Assembly: GCA_944389315.1 (NCBI GenBank)
Contig: CALXLX010000003.1
Coordinates: 1-64,000 of the forward strand
DNA: 64,000 nucleotides
Origin: an uncultured Opitutales bacterium
GTDB lineage: Bacteria; Verrucomicrobiota; Verrucomicrobiia; Opitutales; Intestinicryptomonadaceae
Direction: 5' to 3'
In this document: piece by piece, positions 2,301 to 17,090 of the stretch
Layout of the letters: every line of letters begins with the position of its first letter
How positions within the stretch are numbered: the stretch's first letter is position 1
The notes under the pieces: generated by a model
Seen by the model: the letters and a program-made list of their open reading frames with translations, nothing else
Told to the model about the DNA's origin: nothing
The model's database searches: none
Made by a program: the position numbers and the translations under genes

Positions 2301-4148
2301 ATGTGTGGTATAACAGGATATATAGGTGCGCGCCAGGCCGCCCCCATATTGTTGGAGGGGCTGTCCAAGTTGGAGTACAGGGGATACGACTCCGCGGGGC
2401 TGGCGCTGTTAAACGGCTCGGAAATGGACGTGAGAAAAAAGAAGGGCAGGGTTTCCGTGCTCGCCCAGGAGGTCAAGAAACATTTCTTCGACTCCCATCT
2501 GGGCATCAGCCACACCCGCTGGGCCACCCACGGAGCCGTCACCGACGCGAACGCCCACCCTCACGTTTCCTCCTGCGGAAATTTTGCGATGGTCCACAAC
2601 GGGGTCATAGAAAACTACGAGAACATAAAGAGTTTTCTGCTCACGAAGGGTTATACATTCCGCAGCCAGACGGACTCCGAAGCCCTCGTGAATCTTATCG
2701 CCTACCACTATTACAAGCTTCCAGAGAATTCGGAGAACCGCTTTCTTGAGTCTGTAAGAAGGGCCCTCTTGCACCTTGAGGGCACATACGGCATAGCGGT
2801 AATATGCCGCATGCAGCCCGACGAGATAATCGCGGCGCGCAAAGGCTCTCCGCTGATAATAGGCATAGGCGACTCCGAGCGCATGGTCTCCAGCGACGTA
2901 TTGGGCTTTTCCGGGCGCGCCAGAAGCGTCATTTATCTCGACGACGGGCAGATAGCCAAAGTAACGGCAGATTCCTGCGAGGTGGTCTCGGCCAACAACG
3001 AGCTTGTCCCCTATGTCACAAACAGCGTAGATTGGGAGCTGGATTCCGCGGAGCTTGGGAGCTTTTCCACATACATGGAAAAGGAGATATTCGAGCAGCC
3101 CAAAGTCATAGAAAACGCCATTCGCGGGAGAATATCCGACGACGCCTCCACGGCTGTTCTAAACGGCCTGAATATGACCCCGTCGGAGATGAGGCAGATA
3201 GACAGAATACTGTTTTGCGCGTGCGGCACGGCGTGGCATGCCTGCCTCGTGGCGGAAAATCTCATTGAGAAATACACGAGGATACCCGTTGAGGTGGAGT
3301 ACGCCAGCGAATTTAGATACCGCAATGCGCCGCTGGACAAAAACACGCTCGCCTTTGTGATAAGCCAAAGCGGGGAGACCATAGACACGCTCGAGGCGCT
3401 GAGGGAGTCGAGGCGCAAGGGCTTTAAGACGCTCGCAATAACAAATTCCGTGGGTTCCACTATAGCCAGGGAGAGCGACGGCGGCCTGTACCAGCATGCG
3501 GGCAGGGAGATAGGCGTTGCATCGACAAAGGCATTCACGTCCCAGATAACGATATGCATACTCATAGCCCTGTATATAGGCCGCATGAGGGATTTGTCCT
3601 TTGCGCAGGGCAAGGAGATAGTGGGCGCGCTGAAGGCTCTGCCGTCGGCCGTGGAGGAGACTTTGAAGCTTGCGCCCGAGCTTAAAAAGCTCGCCGGGAA
3701 ATATTGCAAATATCACGATTTCCTCTTTTTGGGCAGGCTCGACGAGTTCCCCATAGCCCTTGAAGGCGCGCTTAAGCTAAAGGAGATTTCTTACATACAT
3801 GCCGAGGGGTATCCGGCCGCCGAGATGAAGCATGGCCCGATTGCGCTCGTAAGCCCCGAATGTCCAACCCTGATTTTCGCCAACTCGGGGGATATATTCA
3901 ACAAGGTTATCTCAAACGCGCAGGAGATAAAGGCGCGCAAAGGCCCGCTTATAATCGTGACGGACTCTCCTGACAGGTTCCCGGAGGGGCTTGCCGACGA
4001 CGTCGTTGTAATTCCCAAGGTGCACGAGTCCGTGCGCCCGGTGGTATCCACCATACCCATACAGCTGCTCGCCTATTACATAGCCCAGCAGCTTGGGTGC
4101 GATGTCGATAAGCCGCGAAATCTCGCAAAGAGCGTGACGGTCGAATAG
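2301..4148 (+). CDS. glmS: Glutamine-fructose-6-phosphate aminotransferase GlmS
   Basis: GlmS makes glucosamine-6-phosphate from fructose-6-phosphate and glutamine, the entry step to peptidoglycan and LPS amino sugars. The 615-residue length is typical. The N terminus MCGITGYIG provides the catalytic Cys after Met removal; residues 2 to about 220 are the class II glutamine amidotransferase domain (YRGYDSAG, HTRWATHG, HNGVIENY). Two SIS sugar-isomerase domains follow (ISQSGETIDT near residue 353, TNSVGS, and LEGALKLKEISY with EMKHGPIAL), and the chain ends in the family tail KSVTVE. No Shine-Dalgarno is visible before the start. The leader is far too short for a glmS ribozyme. A strong hairpin terminator follows. 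Confidence 0.98.
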   Translation: MCGITGYIGARQAAPILLEGLSKLEYRGYDSAGLALLNGSEMDVRKKKGRVSVLAQEVKKHFFDSHLGISHTRWATHGAVTDANAHPHVSSCGNFAMVHNGVIENYENIKSFLLTKGYTFRSQTDSEALVNLIAYHYYKLPENSENRFLESVRRALLHLEGTYGIAVICRMQPDEIIAARKGSPLIIGIGDSERMVSSDVLGFSGRARSVIYLDDGQIAKVTADSCEVVSANNELVPYVTNSVDWELDSAELGSFSTYMEKEIFEQPKVIENAIRGRISDDASTAVLNGLNMTPSEMRQIDRILFCACGTAWHACLVAENLIEKYTRIPVEVEYASEFRYRNAPLDKNTLAFVISQSGETIDTLEALRESRRKGFKTLAITNSVGSTIARESDGGLYQHAGREIGVASTKAFTSQITICILIALYIGRMRDLSFAQGKEIVGALKALPSAVEETLKLAPELKKLAGKYCKYHDFLFLGRLDEFPIALEGALKLKEISYIHAEGYPAAEMKHGPIALVSPECPTLIFANSGDIFNKVISNAQEIKARKGPLIIVTDSPDRFPEGLADDVVVIPKVHESVRPVVSTIPIQLLAYYIAQQLGCDVDKPRNLAKSVTVE

Positions 4149-4175
4149 GGCTTTGATAAAAACGCTTTTTCCCAT

Positions 4176-4208
4176 AAAAAACCTCCGCGCATCAGGCGGA
4201 GGTTTTTC
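4176..4208 (+). terminator. Rho-independent terminator after glmS
   Basis: Perfect stem: A-run plus CCTCCGC pairs with GCGGAGG plus T-run around a 7-base loop. It lies about 30 bases after the glmS stop. The A/T symmetry means it could also act on minus-strand transcripts from the SGNH gene. Confidence 0.9.
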
Positions 4209-4336
4209 CCTTTAAAACGAAGTCGTCTTTTTCCTATCCTGGCAAGGGCCGTTTTTATATGGGCTCTCGGCGGTTGCGTTTGCTTTTTAGGGCAGGTTTT
4301 CCCTCATGGCAAAAGAGTGCCGCCTTGGGGAGCGTC

Positions 4337-5737
4337 TTAGCGCGCGGATACCTCGCATATTTCAAATGCGTGCGGTTTGGGTTGTGCGGCTTCGTAGGCC
4401 CTCTTTATTAGGTCTTTTATCTCGGCGGACAGTTTATCTTTATTCATGCGGTTTGCGCAGTAGAATTCGTGCACGCCTTTATAGTAGGCGGAGCCTTTGA
4501 ACCGTTTGTCTTCGGGGAAGTTTGTTCGCACATATTCAACCGCCTTGGCAGGATCTGCGCATATTTGCGGGTCTTTTATGTGCTTCAGCTCGACATACGC
4601 GAAATTCCTGAATTTTGAGTATTTGTCCCTCCACTGCTCGCAGAGGCTCAATACTTCCTCGGCCTGTTTATATTGCGGAGTAAGCGCATTGCCTGCGAGG
4701 TTTACACCATCGGAAAGCTCCCGGGCGGAATATTCACCCACGGGTTGGGAATCTATCTTTAGCGCATATTTTTTCCCCGGATTCAAATTTTTTACGGAAA
4801 GTATCTGGCGGTTAAATGTGTTGTTGAAATCGATAAGTTCAGCTATTTTCTTTAGCTCTGCGGAGACGGGAATGGGCAGGGAATATTCCAAGCTTTTAAA
4901 TTTTAGGGCGGAGCCAGTCTTGGAGATGTCCGATATGCTGCAGTTGGCCTCGCGCAAGGCCTTGCCGGAGGAAAAGTCTATTTCCGTTTCCGAAACCACG
5001 GGGCTTTCCCCCATATCGGCTATGTATTTTGCTGCTATGGCAAAGCCTCCGGGGTTTTGCGGGTGAACACGGTCGGCGCTTATTACAGTGGCGGATTTAT
5101 CCGCCTTCTGAAGTTCGCAGTTCAGTTGGTTGGTCTGCCCCCAGATGTCGGCAACTTTGGCCCCGTACTTCGGCGCCGTTTGCTCTACTATGCTTCCGAA
5201 CTCGCGGAGCACACCGTTTGCGCCCGTCAGCGGCTTTTGCTTTGAGCCGGTTGTAGTCTCGTCGTAAATGGAGGGGGTGAAAACCACTACGCGCCCTATG
5301 CCGGCTTCGTTGAACTCCTTGAGCATGCGGTTTAAGTTGTATTTATAGTAGTCTATTACGTATTTTCTGACCTTGGCGATTTTCTCGGGCGGATTCGGCC
5401 TTTCAGTGGAGAAAATGTCCCTGGCGGAGTCGTTCATGCCTATCATAAGAATTATGGCGTCGGGCTTGGGGTTTAATACGTCGCTTTCCATGCGCTTTAA
5501 GATTCCCTCGGCGGTGTCCCCAGATATCCCTTTGGAGACGAAATTCACCTTCATGGACGGAAAGCGCGTTATGTAATAGGCGGTTATGTATTTATTATAG
5601 CGCCCTCCGTGCGTGATGCTATCTCCAAGATAGGTTAGGGTGGAGGAGTCCCCGAGAATTTTTGAGCTTATATTTTCCGCAGCCAGCCCCGCGAAGGCGG
5701 CCACGAATAAGAATAATGCCAATATGCGCTTTTTCAT
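4337..5737 (-). CDS. Secreted SGNH/GDSL-family esterase
   Basis: A 466-residue exported protein with a signal peptide (MKKRILALFLFVAAFAGLAA) and an N-terminal SGNH hydrolase domain. The four blocks are visible: GDSITHGG (nucleophile Ser), GISGDTAEG (oxyanion Gly), IGMNDS (oxyanion Asn) and DRVHPQNPGG (catalytic Asp-x-x-His). Such enzymes remove acetyl or other acyl groups from glycans, among many substrates. The roughly 230 C-terminal residues after the catalytic domain have no motif I recognise. The ATG at 5755 would add six residues; 5737 is preferred because it starts directly at the signal peptide. Its neighbours are GH31 and GH78 enzymes on the same strand, separated by a terminator, which supports a role in glycan deacylation. 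Confidence 0.85.
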   Translation of the reverse strand: MKKRILALFLFVAAFAGLAAENISSKILGDSSTLTYLGDSITHGGRYNKYITAYYITRFPSMKVNFVSKGISGDTAEGILKRMESDVLNPKPDAIILMIGMNDSARDIFSTERPNPPEKIAKVRKYVIDYYKYNLNRMLKEFNEAGIGRVVVFTPSIYDETTTGSKQKPLTGANGVLREFGSIVEQTAPKYGAKVADIWGQTNQLNCELQKADKSATVISADRVHPQNPGGFAIAAKYIADMGESPVVSETEIDFSSGKALREANCSISDISKTGSALKFKSLEYSLPIPVSAELKKIAELIDFNNTFNRQILSVKNLNPGKKYALKIDSQPVGEYSARELSDGVNLAGNALTPQYKQAEEVLSLCEQWRDKYSKFRNFAYVELKHIKDPQICADPAKAVEYVRTNFPEDKRFKGSAYYKGVHEFYCANRMNKDKLSAEIKDLIKRAYEAAQPKPHAFEICEVSAR

Positions 5738-11346: not shown

Positions 11347-12795
11347 TTACACTCTGTTTATGTATTGCGTCATCGGAATTATTACACAATATACCCCCGC
11401 GAACACGAGCCCGGCGGCTGTGGCAAAACGCAGAAAGAGGCGTCCCGGCTTTATATCCACTTTGGGATGGACCGTCCTGATGAGTATGGACGCGAAAACA
11501 GCCGTCAAGAGCGCCGCGGCCGGAGTAGATGCGCAATTTGTAAATACTGGCAAAACTATAAATGCCAGAAACCCCAATAGAGCGCCTCCCGTCCTTATCG
11601 TCTCCTCCGGCGTGACGCTTTTATTTAGGTCCGCATGGCGCATCTTCATTATAAGGCGCATTCTTTCCCTCTTAGGCAAATTGCCCTCTATCAGCGACAT
11701 GGGCCACCTTTCTATGCTGAGGCCGCGCCAGTAGAGATATGCTTTTATAAAAAGCACAAGCAGCGGTATTGCTATGCATGCAAAGCCCAGCCATCCGAAC
11801 GCATGCAAAAGCACCGCAAGCGTGTTTGGCAGGCCTTCCGGAACTGCGCCAGAACCCAATAACGGAATGGAACCTAGGCCGTTTAGGAAATCGGCGTACT
11901 GCAGGAAATCGGCCTTTAGCAGGCCCGCAAAATTCGTCCCCGTGAGTTTACAGGCGTAGTATTTGTCCAAAAATACAGCCACAAAGGTTCCTACGGCCAA
12001 GATGAGGTTCCTGATCAGATATTTGAATCTTACAACGCGAGAGCCTATATACATAAACGGCGCTGCAAGCAGGCAAAAACTTGCATAGGAAAGCGCGGCT
12101 ATGCTGCCGGAAAAGGCTATGCCCATCCACATGAACACAAATATAAACAGGGAAAAAATCTTCTTCTGCTCTGAGGAATTTCTCACAGAGATTATCGACA
12201 GCGCAAAGGGAATTATCGCGCACATAAGAAGGGACAATTCCTCTACGGAAGTAAAATATCCGCCCTTCATCATTCCCGAAAAATAATATGCGTTTATGTC
12301 GTTGGACATCAGCCATATCTTTTCCTTCGAGTTCTGGGCAAATCCGATTACAACCGCCAAGGCCGCTATGAGCCCCAGTGCGTTTTTAAAAAGAGAAAGC
12401 TCAAAATGCATTCTCAGCATATGGCAGATTACAAACGCCATTGCCGCCGAGCCCACCGCCGCTTGCAAATATATGCCTTCCCCTCCTGAAAAATAGACCA
12501 TTGCCGCCGAGAGGAGCGGTGGAATGGTCAAAAGCCACATGAGGTTTAATTTGTATCTGCGCCCGTTTCTTAGCGCATACCATAATGCCGCCGCAAAGAC
12601 GCAGGCCGGAAAGGCCCATATCAAGCCGTCTTGGACGAAGAACGTTGCGGATAAATCTGCGCTTCTTACAATATAGTAGGCGCACACAACCGCAGCCAAG
12701 GAGACGAATCTTTCCAGAAAAATGCTCGGAAAAGTGTCTCTGTCTGAGAGTTTCCTGAAAAACGGCCCAAAGGTGTCGTGAAAAATCTTAAACAT
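11347..12795 (-). CDS. Polytopic membrane protein, possibly O-antigen ligase-like
   Basis: A 482-residue integral membrane protein with about ten to twelve hydrophobic segments. I do not recognise it firmly. Two stretches recall the O-antigen ligase/polymerase (Wzy_C) family: a LLGSGAVPEG...NTLAVLLHAFGWLGF segment near residue 320-350, resembling the G-x-G...HN...E-x-G-x-x-G region, and FSGSIAALSYASFCLLAAP, resembling the small-residue helix before it. The conserved periplasmic Arg and His residues are not convincing, so the assignment is weak. It starts 6 bases after the stop of the coiled-coil gene, so the two are one operon and may act in the same envelope complex. Confidence 0.6.
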   Translation of the reverse strand: MFKIFHDTFGPFFRKLSDRDTFPSIFLERFVSLAAVVCAYYIVRSADLSATFFVQDGLIWAFPACVFAAALWYALRNGRRYKLNLMWLLTIPPLLSAAMVYFSGGEGIYLQAAVGSAAMAFVICHMLRMHFELSLFKNALGLIAALAVVIGFAQNSKEKIWLMSNDINAYYFSGMMKGGYFTSVEELSLLMCAIIPFALSIISVRNSSEQKKIFSLFIFVFMWMGIAFSGSIAALSYASFCLLAAPFMYIGSRVVRFKYLIRNLILAVGTFVAVFLDKYYACKLTGTNFAGLLKADFLQYADFLNGLGSIPLLGSGAVPEGLPNTLAVLLHAFGWLGFACIAIPLLVLFIKAYLYWRGLSIERWPMSLIEGNLPKRERMRLIMKMRHADLNKSVTPEETIRTGGALLGFLAFIVLPVFTNCASTPAAALLTAVFASILIRTVHPKVDIKPGRLFLRFATAAGLVFAGVYCVIIPMTQYINRV

Positions 12796-12801
12796 GAATT
12801 G

Positions 12802-13482
12802 TTAGTTTGAACGCAAGTTTGGTGAGAGTAGGCGCTTGGGTCTGGGGAGAAGTATGTCTCCGCCCATGTTTATTATGCGCTGTTCGGTGAGCATTTGAAG
12901 GCGCTCAGCCTTCTTCCTGAGCTCCTCGAGCTCCTCGAGCTCCTTTTTGAGTTTGGCAATCTCGCTGTCCTTCTTTCCGAGCAATGCCTTGATTCGCTCT
13001 ATCTCGGCGTTCGTGTCCATGTTGTTTTTAAGCTTGAGCTCGTCGAGCGCCTTGCGGGTGCTTTCCATGGAAATTTTAAGGTTGTCGCGCTGCTTTGAAA
13101 GCTCCTTGGACGCCTCCTCGGCGGCCAGCCTGGCTTCGGCCTCGCGTTCGAGCTGGGCGTTTAGGTTGGCGATTAGCTCCTTCTTTGTCGCGGCGCTTTC
13201 GTTCCTCATTTTTTCAAGCATCTTTGCCGCCGTGCGGGCTTTCTCTAGATTTTCGCTGGCCTTCCTGCGCTCCGCCTCGGAGAGCATCTCCGCTCTCGAG
13301 GCCTTCTCGAGCGCGGCTTTGGCCTGCTCGTCTATGTTTTCCAGCCTCATCTGCGCAGTGTGCTTCTCAGCCTTCAATATCTCCAGGTTGGTGCGCTCCT
13401 GCCCGTATTTGAAGAAAAACACGACGGCCGTAAACGCCAGAAGGCACAATCCTATCAGCAGGCTTTTATGTAGATCGTTCAT
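12802..13482 (-). CDS. Membrane-anchored coiled-coil protein
   Basis: A 226-residue protein: a short cytoplasmic start (MNDLHKS), one membrane helix (LLIGLCLLAFTAVVFFF, about residues 8-24), then roughly 165 residues of uninterrupted heptad-rich, Ala/Glu/Lys/Leu helix (RTNLEILKAEKHTAQ... to ...LQMLTEQRI), ending in a basic tail. It looks like a rod anchored in the inner membrane. No enzymatic motif is visible. It lies directly upstream (6 bases) of the polytopic membrane protein. Function unknown; low-complexity coiled coils can produce false similarity to SMC, TolA or M-like proteins. Confidence 0.75.
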   Translation of the reverse strand: MNDLHKSLLIGLCLLAFTAVVFFFKYGQERTNLEILKAEKHTAQMRLENIDEQAKAALEKASRAEMLSEAERRKASENLEKARTAAKMLEKMRNESAATKKELIANLNAQLEREAEARLAAEEASKELSKQRDNLKISMESTRKALDELKLKNNMDTNAEIERIKALLGKKDSEIAKLKKELEELEELRKKAERLQMLTEQRIINMGGDILLPRPKRLLSPNLRSN

Positions 13483-13627: not shown

Positions 13628-14768
<1,141 letters not shown>

Positions 14769-14804: not shown

Positions 14805-15302
14805 ATGGATTGGCAAATAAGACCTTTGGCGAGAAAGTCGTCGCTTAGCGGGAGGGATTTCTCCGTGGGCGACAGGGTCGTTTGCGCGGTTTTTCTCGAC
14901 GATGCCGGCAACCTCGACAGGGTGGATATACTCAAGGACGAGCTCGAGGCCTTCAAGCTCGACAAAAAAATACTCGGCAAATGGGAGCGCGAGGTCAGCG
15001 CAAATCCCGAGGCGGACGAACGCGCGGCGCGCCGCATGGCGCTTGCGGGCTCTGAGGATTTTTTCCTTTCGCTCTTCGACGAATCCTCGCAGATAGACGC
15101 CGACGAGAAGGACGTCATAAAGCAGATACTGGCTCTTTTGTTGGAGCGCAAACGCATAATCAAGCCAGTGGGAAGGCCCTCGGGCGGTGTTCAGAAATAT
15201 GTGCATTGCTCCACCAAGAATTTGCTCGATGTTCCGCAGAAGGAGCTTGACGCGGATCTCGTAATGAAAATTAAATCTCAGTTGGACTATCTTATAATGT
15301 AA
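14805..15302 (+). CDS. Conserved hypothetical protein
   Basis: A 165-residue soluble protein without signal peptide or membrane helix. The N-terminal ARKSSLSGRDFSVGDRVVCAVFLDD resembles the start of a protein type I know from planctomycete and verrucomicrobial genomes, where that region often carries Cys residues (C-x2-TG-x-F-x2-G-x3-S); here those cysteines are absent. The C-terminal half is helical and basic (IKQILALLLERKRIIKPVGR). No enzymatic motif is visible. It lies between prfB and the lipoprotein gene, only 2 bases before the latter, so it belongs to the same transcription unit. Function unknown. Confidence 0.75.
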   Translation: MDWQIRPLARKSSLSGRDFSVGDRVVCAVFLDDAGNLDRVDILKDELEAFKLDKKILGKWEREVSANPEADERAARRMALAGSEDFFLSLFDESSQIDADEKDVIKQILALLLERKRIIKPVGRPSGGVQKYVHCSTKNLLDVPQKELDADLVMKIKSQLDYLIM

Positions 15303-15304
15303 AT

Positions 15305-15847
15305 ATGAAAAAGTTTTATAGAGCATTGTTGTTGGGTTTTGCGTGCGCGTGTCTTTCGGCGTGCGTGTCGGACGATAATCCCGAAATGTTGATAGGTTTT
15401 TATGTGGGAGACCCCAATACGAACATCCCCACGGGAGTGAGCCGCCAGATAGAGTATCTGCCCCTGAGCAAGACTTCGGTTGTCATAGACAAGAAGGCGT
15501 TTATGCTCAACGGTGAATTGACGGATGTGAAAGTCGCCAAGATACCGATTTCCCCGCGAGAGTTTCTTTACGGCTTCCAGTTCCAGTGCAACTCTAAGGG
15601 CGCTAGGCGCCTTGCGCAGACTATGGGTTCAAATATGAACAAGCTTATAGTCGTAAAAAGCGGCGAGACGGTCCTCGGGGTGCGCCCCATAGACACCGTG
15701 GTGGGAGACGGCAGCTTGTTCGTAGTCTCAGAGGTCGAAAATAAGGATCCTTCCGATCCAAATAAGGGCATCGAGACTATGCAAGAGCTCGCCGTTCAGA
15801 TGAACAAGTCCATTAAACGGGCCCAGGAGATACTAAGCGAAAACTAG
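15305..15847 (+). CDS. Lipoprotein with SecD-P1-like domain
   Basis: A 180-residue lipoprotein with a clear lipobox (LSAC within MKKFYRALLLGFACACLSAC). After an N-terminal strand-rich region (IEYLPLSKTSVVIDKKAFM), residues about 85-140 follow the pattern of the SecD periplasmic P1 head: FQFQCNSKGARRLAQTMGSNMNKLIVVKSGETVLGVRPIDTVVGDGSLFVVSEV, which recalls the SecD 'f.l...GA..f...T....g..lai.ldg.v...P.i....g...i.g' run. There are no SecD membrane helices, so it is a stand-alone domain on a lipid anchor. It is packed 2 bases after the preceding gene and about 25 bases before an M23 endopeptidase. The SecD likeness is pattern-based inference and the role is unknown. Confidence 0.75.
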   Translation: MKKFYRALLLGFACACLSACVSDDNPEMLIGFYVGDPNTNIPTGVSRQIEYLPLSKTSVVIDKKAFMLNGELTDVKVAKIPISPREFLYGFQFQCNSKGARRLAQTMGSNMNKLIVVKSGETVLGVRPIDTVVGDGSLFVVSEVENKDPSDPNKGIETMQELAVQMNKSIKRAQEILSEN

Positions 15848-15872
15848 TCGGATGTTTGTTCGGGGAAAGAAT

Positions 15873-16853
15873 ATGAGGGTATTGGCGGCATTTTTATGCC
15901 TGGTCTGCATTTCGGTTTCCGAGGCTGCGGACATGGTTTGGCCGACGGATTCCTCCCTATTTGCCCAGGGAAGGCCTTTCTCGGAATATATACAGCCCAC
16001 GCAGTCGGGCATACCCTCGAGCGGCCTATGGGGAGATGTCCGAAGCGGAGGATACCGTTTCCACGAGGGCATAGACATAAAGGCCCAGAGGAAAGACCGC
16101 AGGGGAGAGGCTCTCGACGACGTTTACGCCGCCATGGACGGCACTGTAAAATTTGTAAACCGTGTTGCCGGCAAAAGCTCCTACGGTAGATATGTTGTCA
16201 TTGAGCACGAAAGCCTTGATGTTCCGGTGTACACGCTGTATGCGCATTTAGCTTTGGTTGAAGGCGCGATAGAGAAGGGGGTTAAAGTGTCCGCGGGGAC
16301 AAGGCTTGGAACCATGGGCAGAAGCGCCTCAACGGGCATTCCGAAGTCGCGCTCGCATTTGCACTTTGAGATAGGGCTGCGCATGGTAGACAATTTTGAG
16401 CCCTGGTACAGGTCCCAGAAGTTCGGTTCCCCCAACTATTGCGGAAACTTCAACGGCATGAACCTGTTTGGGTTTGATCCGCTCGAGGTTTTCAACAAAG
16501 CCAAAGAGGGCAGGCTCACCAACATGAAAGAGCATATACAGGGCCTAAAAACAGCCTATGTTATAAGGGTTTATACCACTTCTACGCCAGATTTCGTCCG
16601 CAATTATCCGGCTCTTGTTGAAAACGACGGGGAAAAGGTCGGCTGGGACGTATATTTTACGTGGTTCGGGCTGCCGCAGAAGTTTGCGAGGATAAAAGAT
16701 CCTCGCCCGGGAGCCAGGGAGGGCGAAGTGGAAATAGTACTTTACGACCCTTCCGAAATAAAGCGCAAATGCCGAAAGTTTGTTGTGACGGACAAAAAAG
16801 GCAACGTCATGATGACAAAAGATATGAAGGAGCATTTAAAGCTCATTTTCTAA
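15873..16853 (+). CDS. Secreted M23-family (LytM-type) metallopeptidase
   Basis: An exported protein of about 326 residues with a signal peptide (MRVLAAFLCLVCISVSEA). The peptidase M23 domain has all zinc and catalytic motifs: FHEGIDI (H-x3-D, about residues 64-68), a VVIEHESLDVPVYTLYAHL strand with the Y-A-H motif, and SHLHFEIG (H-x-H) near residue 163. M23 enzymes cut peptidoglycan cross-bridges or stem peptides in the periplasm. The 140 residues after the peptidase domain (from WYRSQKF) form an extra beta-rich region I do not recognise. ATG 15873 is preferred over 15852: a GGGGAAAG Shine-Dalgarno precedes it and the signal peptide starts there. Confidence 0.92.
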   Translation: MRVLAAFLCLVCISVSEAADMVWPTDSSLFAQGRPFSEYIQPTQSGIPSSGLWGDVRSGGYRFHEGIDIKAQRKDRRGEALDDVYAAMDGTVKFVNRVAGKSSYGRYVVIEHESLDVPVYTLYAHLALVEGAIEKGVKVSAGTRLGTMGRSASTGIPKSRSHLHFEIGLRMVDNFEPWYRSQKFGSPNYCGNFNGMNLFGFDPLEVFNKAKEGRLTNMKEHIQGLKTAYVIRVYTTSTPDFVRNYPALVENDGEKVGWDVYFTWFGLPQKFARIKDPRPGAREGEVEIVLYDPSEIKRKCRKFVVTDKKGNVMMTKDMKEHLKLIF

Positions 16854-16856
16854 AAT

Positions 16857-17090
16857 ATGTTTCGGCGCGATAAAGGTTTGCGGGTAAAGAAAAATCTGGG
16901 CAAGTACGAGAGTCCTGAGGCGAAGGATCCGCTGCGCAAGCACACAACTTTAAAGCAGAGCGAGTTTAAAAAGAACGACATCCCGGAGGAAAACGCAAAA
17001 TCGCTGCGCAAGCTGCTGTTGTTGGCGTTTATGCTTTTGGTGTTTTGGTTTCTTCGGGAGTGCTGGCTTTCATGGAATATATTTTCCTGA
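16857..17090 (+). CDS. Small C-tail membrane protein, hypothetical
   Basis: A 77-residue protein: a basic, charged N-terminal 48 residues (MFRRDKGLRVKKNLGKYESP...) and a single C-terminal membrane helix (LRKLLLLAFMLLVFWFL, about 50-68). It starts 3 bases after the M23 stop, which argues it is a real, co-translated gene. The topology would place the basic part in the cytoplasm. No homologous family recognised. It closes the prfB-to-M23 cassette. Confidence 0.65.
   Translation: MFRRDKGLRVKKNLGKYESPEAKDPLRKHTTLKQSEFKKNDIPEENAKSLRKLLLLAFMLLVFWFLRECWLSWNIFS

Follow-up and report, generated by a model that had tools for sequence, protein, structure and literature searches.

Growth of the Gram-negative cell wall requires endopeptidases, whose control is difficult to analyse because in most model species several of them overlap. 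Activators of the EnvC/NlpD type have lost their catalytic residues, and the P1 head of SecD is thought to receive preproteins at the translocon or the periplasmic face. Among the systems in which a lipoprotein controls a wall hydrolase, the lipoprotein NlpI of Escherichia coli recruits and enhances the endopeptidase MepS (PMC11211486). Such control is already known as a kind, and the make-up described here, in which a lipoprotein with a SecD P1 head is paired with an M23 peptidase, is new; our literature search found no published description either of such a pair or of lipoproteins with a stand-alone SecD P1 domain. The window, that is, the whole stretch of 64,000 nucleotides analysed from an uncultured Opitutales gut bacterium, contains, in this order, prfB, four same-strand genes encoding a 165-aa protein, the lipoprotein, the M23 protein, and a 77-aa protein, and then eno, with the following features.

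13628-14768, forward strand: prfB (RF2), with the +1 frameshift site CTTTGAC at 13700-13706; outside the conserved unit
14805-15302, forward strand: gene of the 165-aa protein, without a signal peptide; class-wide family with function unassigned
15305-15847, forward strand: lipoprotein gene, 180 aa, lipobox LSAC with Cys20; first gene of the core pair
Residues ~64-162 of the lipoprotein: stand-alone SecDF P1-head domain
15852-16853 (alternative start 15873), forward strand: M23 metallopeptidase gene, with a signal peptide; second gene of the core pair
16056-16373, forward strand: Peptidase_M23 (PF01551) catalytic domain
16473-16850, forward strand: C-terminal domain of the M23 protein, confidently predicted
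16857-17090, forward strand: gene of the 77-aa protein, with a basic N-terminal half and a C-terminal transmembrane helix; genus-restricted accessory

The original prediction had described four packed ORFs at 14805-17090, and they were located there with the gaps claimed, the intergenic distances being 2, 4 or 25, and 3 bases, where the middle figure is set by the M23 start codon. All four are real genes, because orthologues are present in related genomes and nonsynonymous change is far lower than synonymous change in each of them between the host species and its congener (pN of 0.14 and pS of 0.94 for the 77-aa gene). The basic tail that had been ascribed to the 77-residue protein was misplaced, as 14 Lys/Arg residues lie within residues 1-50, ahead of the C-terminal transmembrane helix. 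Scans for promoters and terminators gave promoter counts near chance and no clear operon boundary.

The conservation of the neighbourhood was analysed in named genomes, at the loci of the 80 best-matching M23 orthologues, and by profile searches of 141 genomes of the class. The lipoprotein gene lies immediately 5' of the M23 gene in 61 of these 80 orthologues, and 36 have the 165-aa gene too. In the class survey, the M23 profile matched 115 genomes, 102 of them with this M23 family and not merely a generic M23 domain, the lipoprotein profile matched 81, although some of the weaker matches are SecD itself, and the 165-aa family was matched in 107. Both the lipoprotein gene and this M23 gene were found in 65 genomes; they are direct neighbours in 51 of these, from 20 families, and lie apart in the other 14, indicating that relatives do have a conserved neighbourhood, as had been anticipated. 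Some genomes have lipoprotein homologues without this M23, and about one-quarter of the inspected Opitutales M23 loci have no detectable adjacent lipoprotein. We also read 20 distant loci in full, at least 18 of them with a recognised lipoprotein; most were picked for holding the pair, so that they are informative on the neighbours and not on the frequency of the pair. In these loci, the two genes often share a 4-base overlap and the other neighbours mostly differ, the ones recurring despite the shuffling being those of close relatives, pseudopilin-like genes, and an Akkermansia-like TPR-type gene.

Because the pair is kept across the class while most neighbours differ, the conserved unit consists of two genes, the lipoprotein gene followed by the M23 gene, and is not the four-gene cassette downstream of prfB that had been proposed. 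Throughout the host family, the order of the 165-aa, lipoprotein, and M23 genes is nearly constant. At roughly half of the loci in the host family, prfB adjoins this block, and it is a neighbour within that family only, for which reason its linkage was rejected as a general feature. The 77-aa gene, not seen outside the genus (two genomes), was likewise rejected as part of the core, and so was the 165-aa gene, which heads the block in parts of Opitutales only and has varying neighbours outside Opitutales.

Gene adjacency is evidence of functional linkage, not of contact, and the two genes could be merely co-transcribed old neighbours, with the lipoprotein having an envelope role of its own, for example as a sensor, without being specifically linked to the M23 protein. 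The genomes with the genes apart or with the lipoprotein alone would fit this explanation, as would the fact that the P1-head domain is known in other contexts, but the maintenance of the pair over 20 families, with nearly all surroundings shuffled, makes it quite unlikely. Since at least 20 families have retained the two genes as direct neighbours, the lipoprotein is a probable dedicated partner of the M23 protein.

With regard to the lipoprotein, single-sequence searches of Pfam and NCBIfam with the window member alone yielded nothing significant, and the link to SecD is thus seen only with family profiles. A profile of 34 class members matched the SecDF P1 head with an E-value of 1.1e-10 (3aqo) and also with one of 6e-10, and Pfam SecDF_P1_head was matched by 18 of the 34, the window member being below the Pfam threshold. 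In further genomes of the phylum, the profile also recovers proteins of the size of SecD, one of which was verified as SecD. The AlphaFold model (pLDDT of 93.2 and pTM of 0.83) consists mostly of strands after the signal peptide, and its ten best Foldseek matches in the PDB are all SecD or SecDF, with moderate TM-scores of 0.3-0.5. These results bear out the original prediction of a lipoprotein with a stand-alone SecD-P1-like domain, including agreement of the predicted fold with SecD P1, which had been set beforehand as a check. Compared with SecD and SecDF (P1 head, PF22599; PDB 3aqo, 3aqp, and 5xan), the 180-aa lipoprotein has homology in fold and sequence over about 90 residues; however, the RND-type transmembrane bundle and the SecD_SecF_C domain are absent from it, as judged by the model and Pfam, it is lipid-anchored, and its gene is paired with that of an M23 protein. 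SecD itself, including a P1 head, is encoded separately in the host genome.

The P1 head is also used as a module outside the translocon, because it is present, in one other family of the class (f25), on the C-terminal side of giant Ser/Thr kinases. The giant ORFs with a P1 head in this family are at L266 980-6988, L267 4317-12236, L268 3-5270, and L269 1014-4838; both the Ser/Thr kinase domain and the P1 head exceed the Pfam cut-off in that of L269, and the others are kinase-like. Apart from this, L271, from another class of the phylum, encodes at 1372-2055 a P1-head protein that is secreted and about 228 aa long, with a true SecD gene a short distance downstream (2666-5293), and the product of L270 759-1445 is similar to this protein.

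The homology to the SecDF P1 head raises the alternative that the lipoprotein is a private secretion or folding chaperone, whose P1 head would receive the newly exported M23 chain, at the translocon or the periplasmic face, and release the folded enzyme, and the order of the lipoprotein and then its substrate, with overlapping genes, fits such a role. However, the membrane part by which SecDF couples to the proton gradient is missing, with the host having a SecD of its own, the same domain in kinases points to sensing or binding and not to export, and, to our knowledge, the M23 enzymes of other bacteria fold without such a helper. We therefore consider a chaperone role unlikely, and prefer the lipoprotein as a partner that regulates the M23 protein.

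The M23 protein matched PF01551 with 62.5 bits against a curated cut-off of 28.7, and all 81 sequences compared share its catalytic and zinc residues, H71, D75, H132, H169, and H171, without variation. It has a signal peptide, as judged by eye, and no lipobox in 79 of the 81. Much of the class shares the conserved C-terminal domain (residues ~208-333), which was predicted with a pLDDT of 87.5; sequence searches gave no consistent Pfam family for it, and a fold search of the PDB returned no match (best E=0.5), in line with its having been called unrecognised. Like the DD-endopeptidases MepM and ShyA, this protein has a catalytic M23 domain in which the HxxxD...HxH set is complete; it lacks their N-terminal domains and has instead a C-terminal domain, about 125 residues long, for which no relatives are known.

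In the host genome, one M23 domain was detected, and this "only M23" is provisional because the genome is about 91% complete and the whole-genome family scan is imperfect: in two relatives, G004 and G008, it overlooked the M23 protein that is known to be there. The family scan gave one M23 in most Opitutales genomes too. It gave no match to the NlpC/P60, S13, and S11 peptidase families in the host genome at that completeness, and two transpeptidases were matched, suggesting that the host builds a wall. The sole LytM-type domain detected would have to fill the role of an EnvC/NlpD-type factor in division or amidase control, if that role exists there, with the lipoprotein positioning it at the septum, and the M23 protein does have weak profile matches to EnvC and ActS, which, like NlpD, are amidase activators with a LytM-type domain. 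In contrast to activators of the EnvC/NlpD type, with their degenerate active site, the M23 protein keeps all of its active-site residues throughout the 81 sequences, and no coiled-coil or LysM family was matched in it. An identity as a division factor is therefore very unlikely, and a catalytically active M23 endopeptidase is preferred.

Taken together, the two-gene module is based on adjacency across the class, P1-head homology and fold, and an intact catalytic site. It is on balance probable that the lipoprotein is a membrane-tethered adaptor or regulator dedicated to the main DD-endopeptidase, the M23 protein, by a logic like that of NlpI and MepS. From these features we infer that the M23 protein would be exported as a soluble periplasmic DD-endopeptidase and would cut peptidoglycan cross-links, allowing the wall to grow. 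The lipoprotein would anchor its P1 head in one or another periplasm-facing membrane, may physically bind the enzyme, perhaps via the lineage-specific C-terminal domain, and would keep it close to the membrane or to the machinery of synthesis, setting its activity or stability by either activation or restraint. Thus, of the wall-cutting regulator/effector unit originally proposed, the role is plausible for the lipoprotein and the M23 protein, and the four-gene make-up is not supported. The dedication of a lipoprotein to controlling a wall endopeptidase would be the logic in common with NlpI-MepS (PMC11211486), but NlpI is a TPR protein and MepS an NlpC/P60 enzyme, whereas the pair here combines a lipoprotein of the P1-head and not the TPR fold with an M23 enzyme, and is linked by genomic adjacency.

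It may even be, though we put this forward tentatively, that, in much of the class, a SecD P1 head released from export has been turned into a lipoprotein regulator dedicated to the main endopeptidase that cuts cross-links, possibly the only one. If so, a translocase domain was reused as an envelope regulator, and wall growth there runs on one enzyme-adaptor pair, in contrast to the redundant set of E. coli. Reliance of Opitutales and their relatives on one M23 protein and one lipoprotein would provide a simple system for the coupling of cutting and synthesis. The peptidoglycan of Verrucomicrobium spinosum is canonical, with major muropeptides including tetra-tetra dimers (PMC12283558), so that the expected endopeptidase substrate exists in the phylum. 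For this species, saturating transposon mutagenesis data and methods for deleting genes have been published (PMC12283558), and the idea should be testable there provided that the species has the pair.

Akkermansia-like genomes of the class also hold the pair, and their loci differ from NlpI-MepS in adding a downstream TPR-type gene. At L239, L247, and L251, a related exported protein of 809-889 aa is encoded directly 3' of the pair, with clear TPR repeats in the L251 member, and it is possible that this protein is a third partner in these genomes.

Some observations concern the genes around the pair. The programmed +1 frameshift of prfB is of the usual kind and follows a 25-codon leader that ends ...AGG TTT CTT TGA C, with the main frame after it. 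Farther upstream in the window, on the reverse strand, 12802-13482 encodes a coiled-coil single-span protein, whose gene also precedes prfB in the same-family loci L056 and L057, and 11347-12795 encodes a 482-aa multi-span membrane protein; neither product matched a Pfam family. The 165-aa family gave no match in searches of Pfam, NCBIfam, and the PDB. Outside Opitutales, at L090 and L091 (and L089), it retains a conserved Cys in CxxTG and a second Cys, which are lost in the family of the window, and its gene at these loci adjoins an LptF/LptG permease gene.
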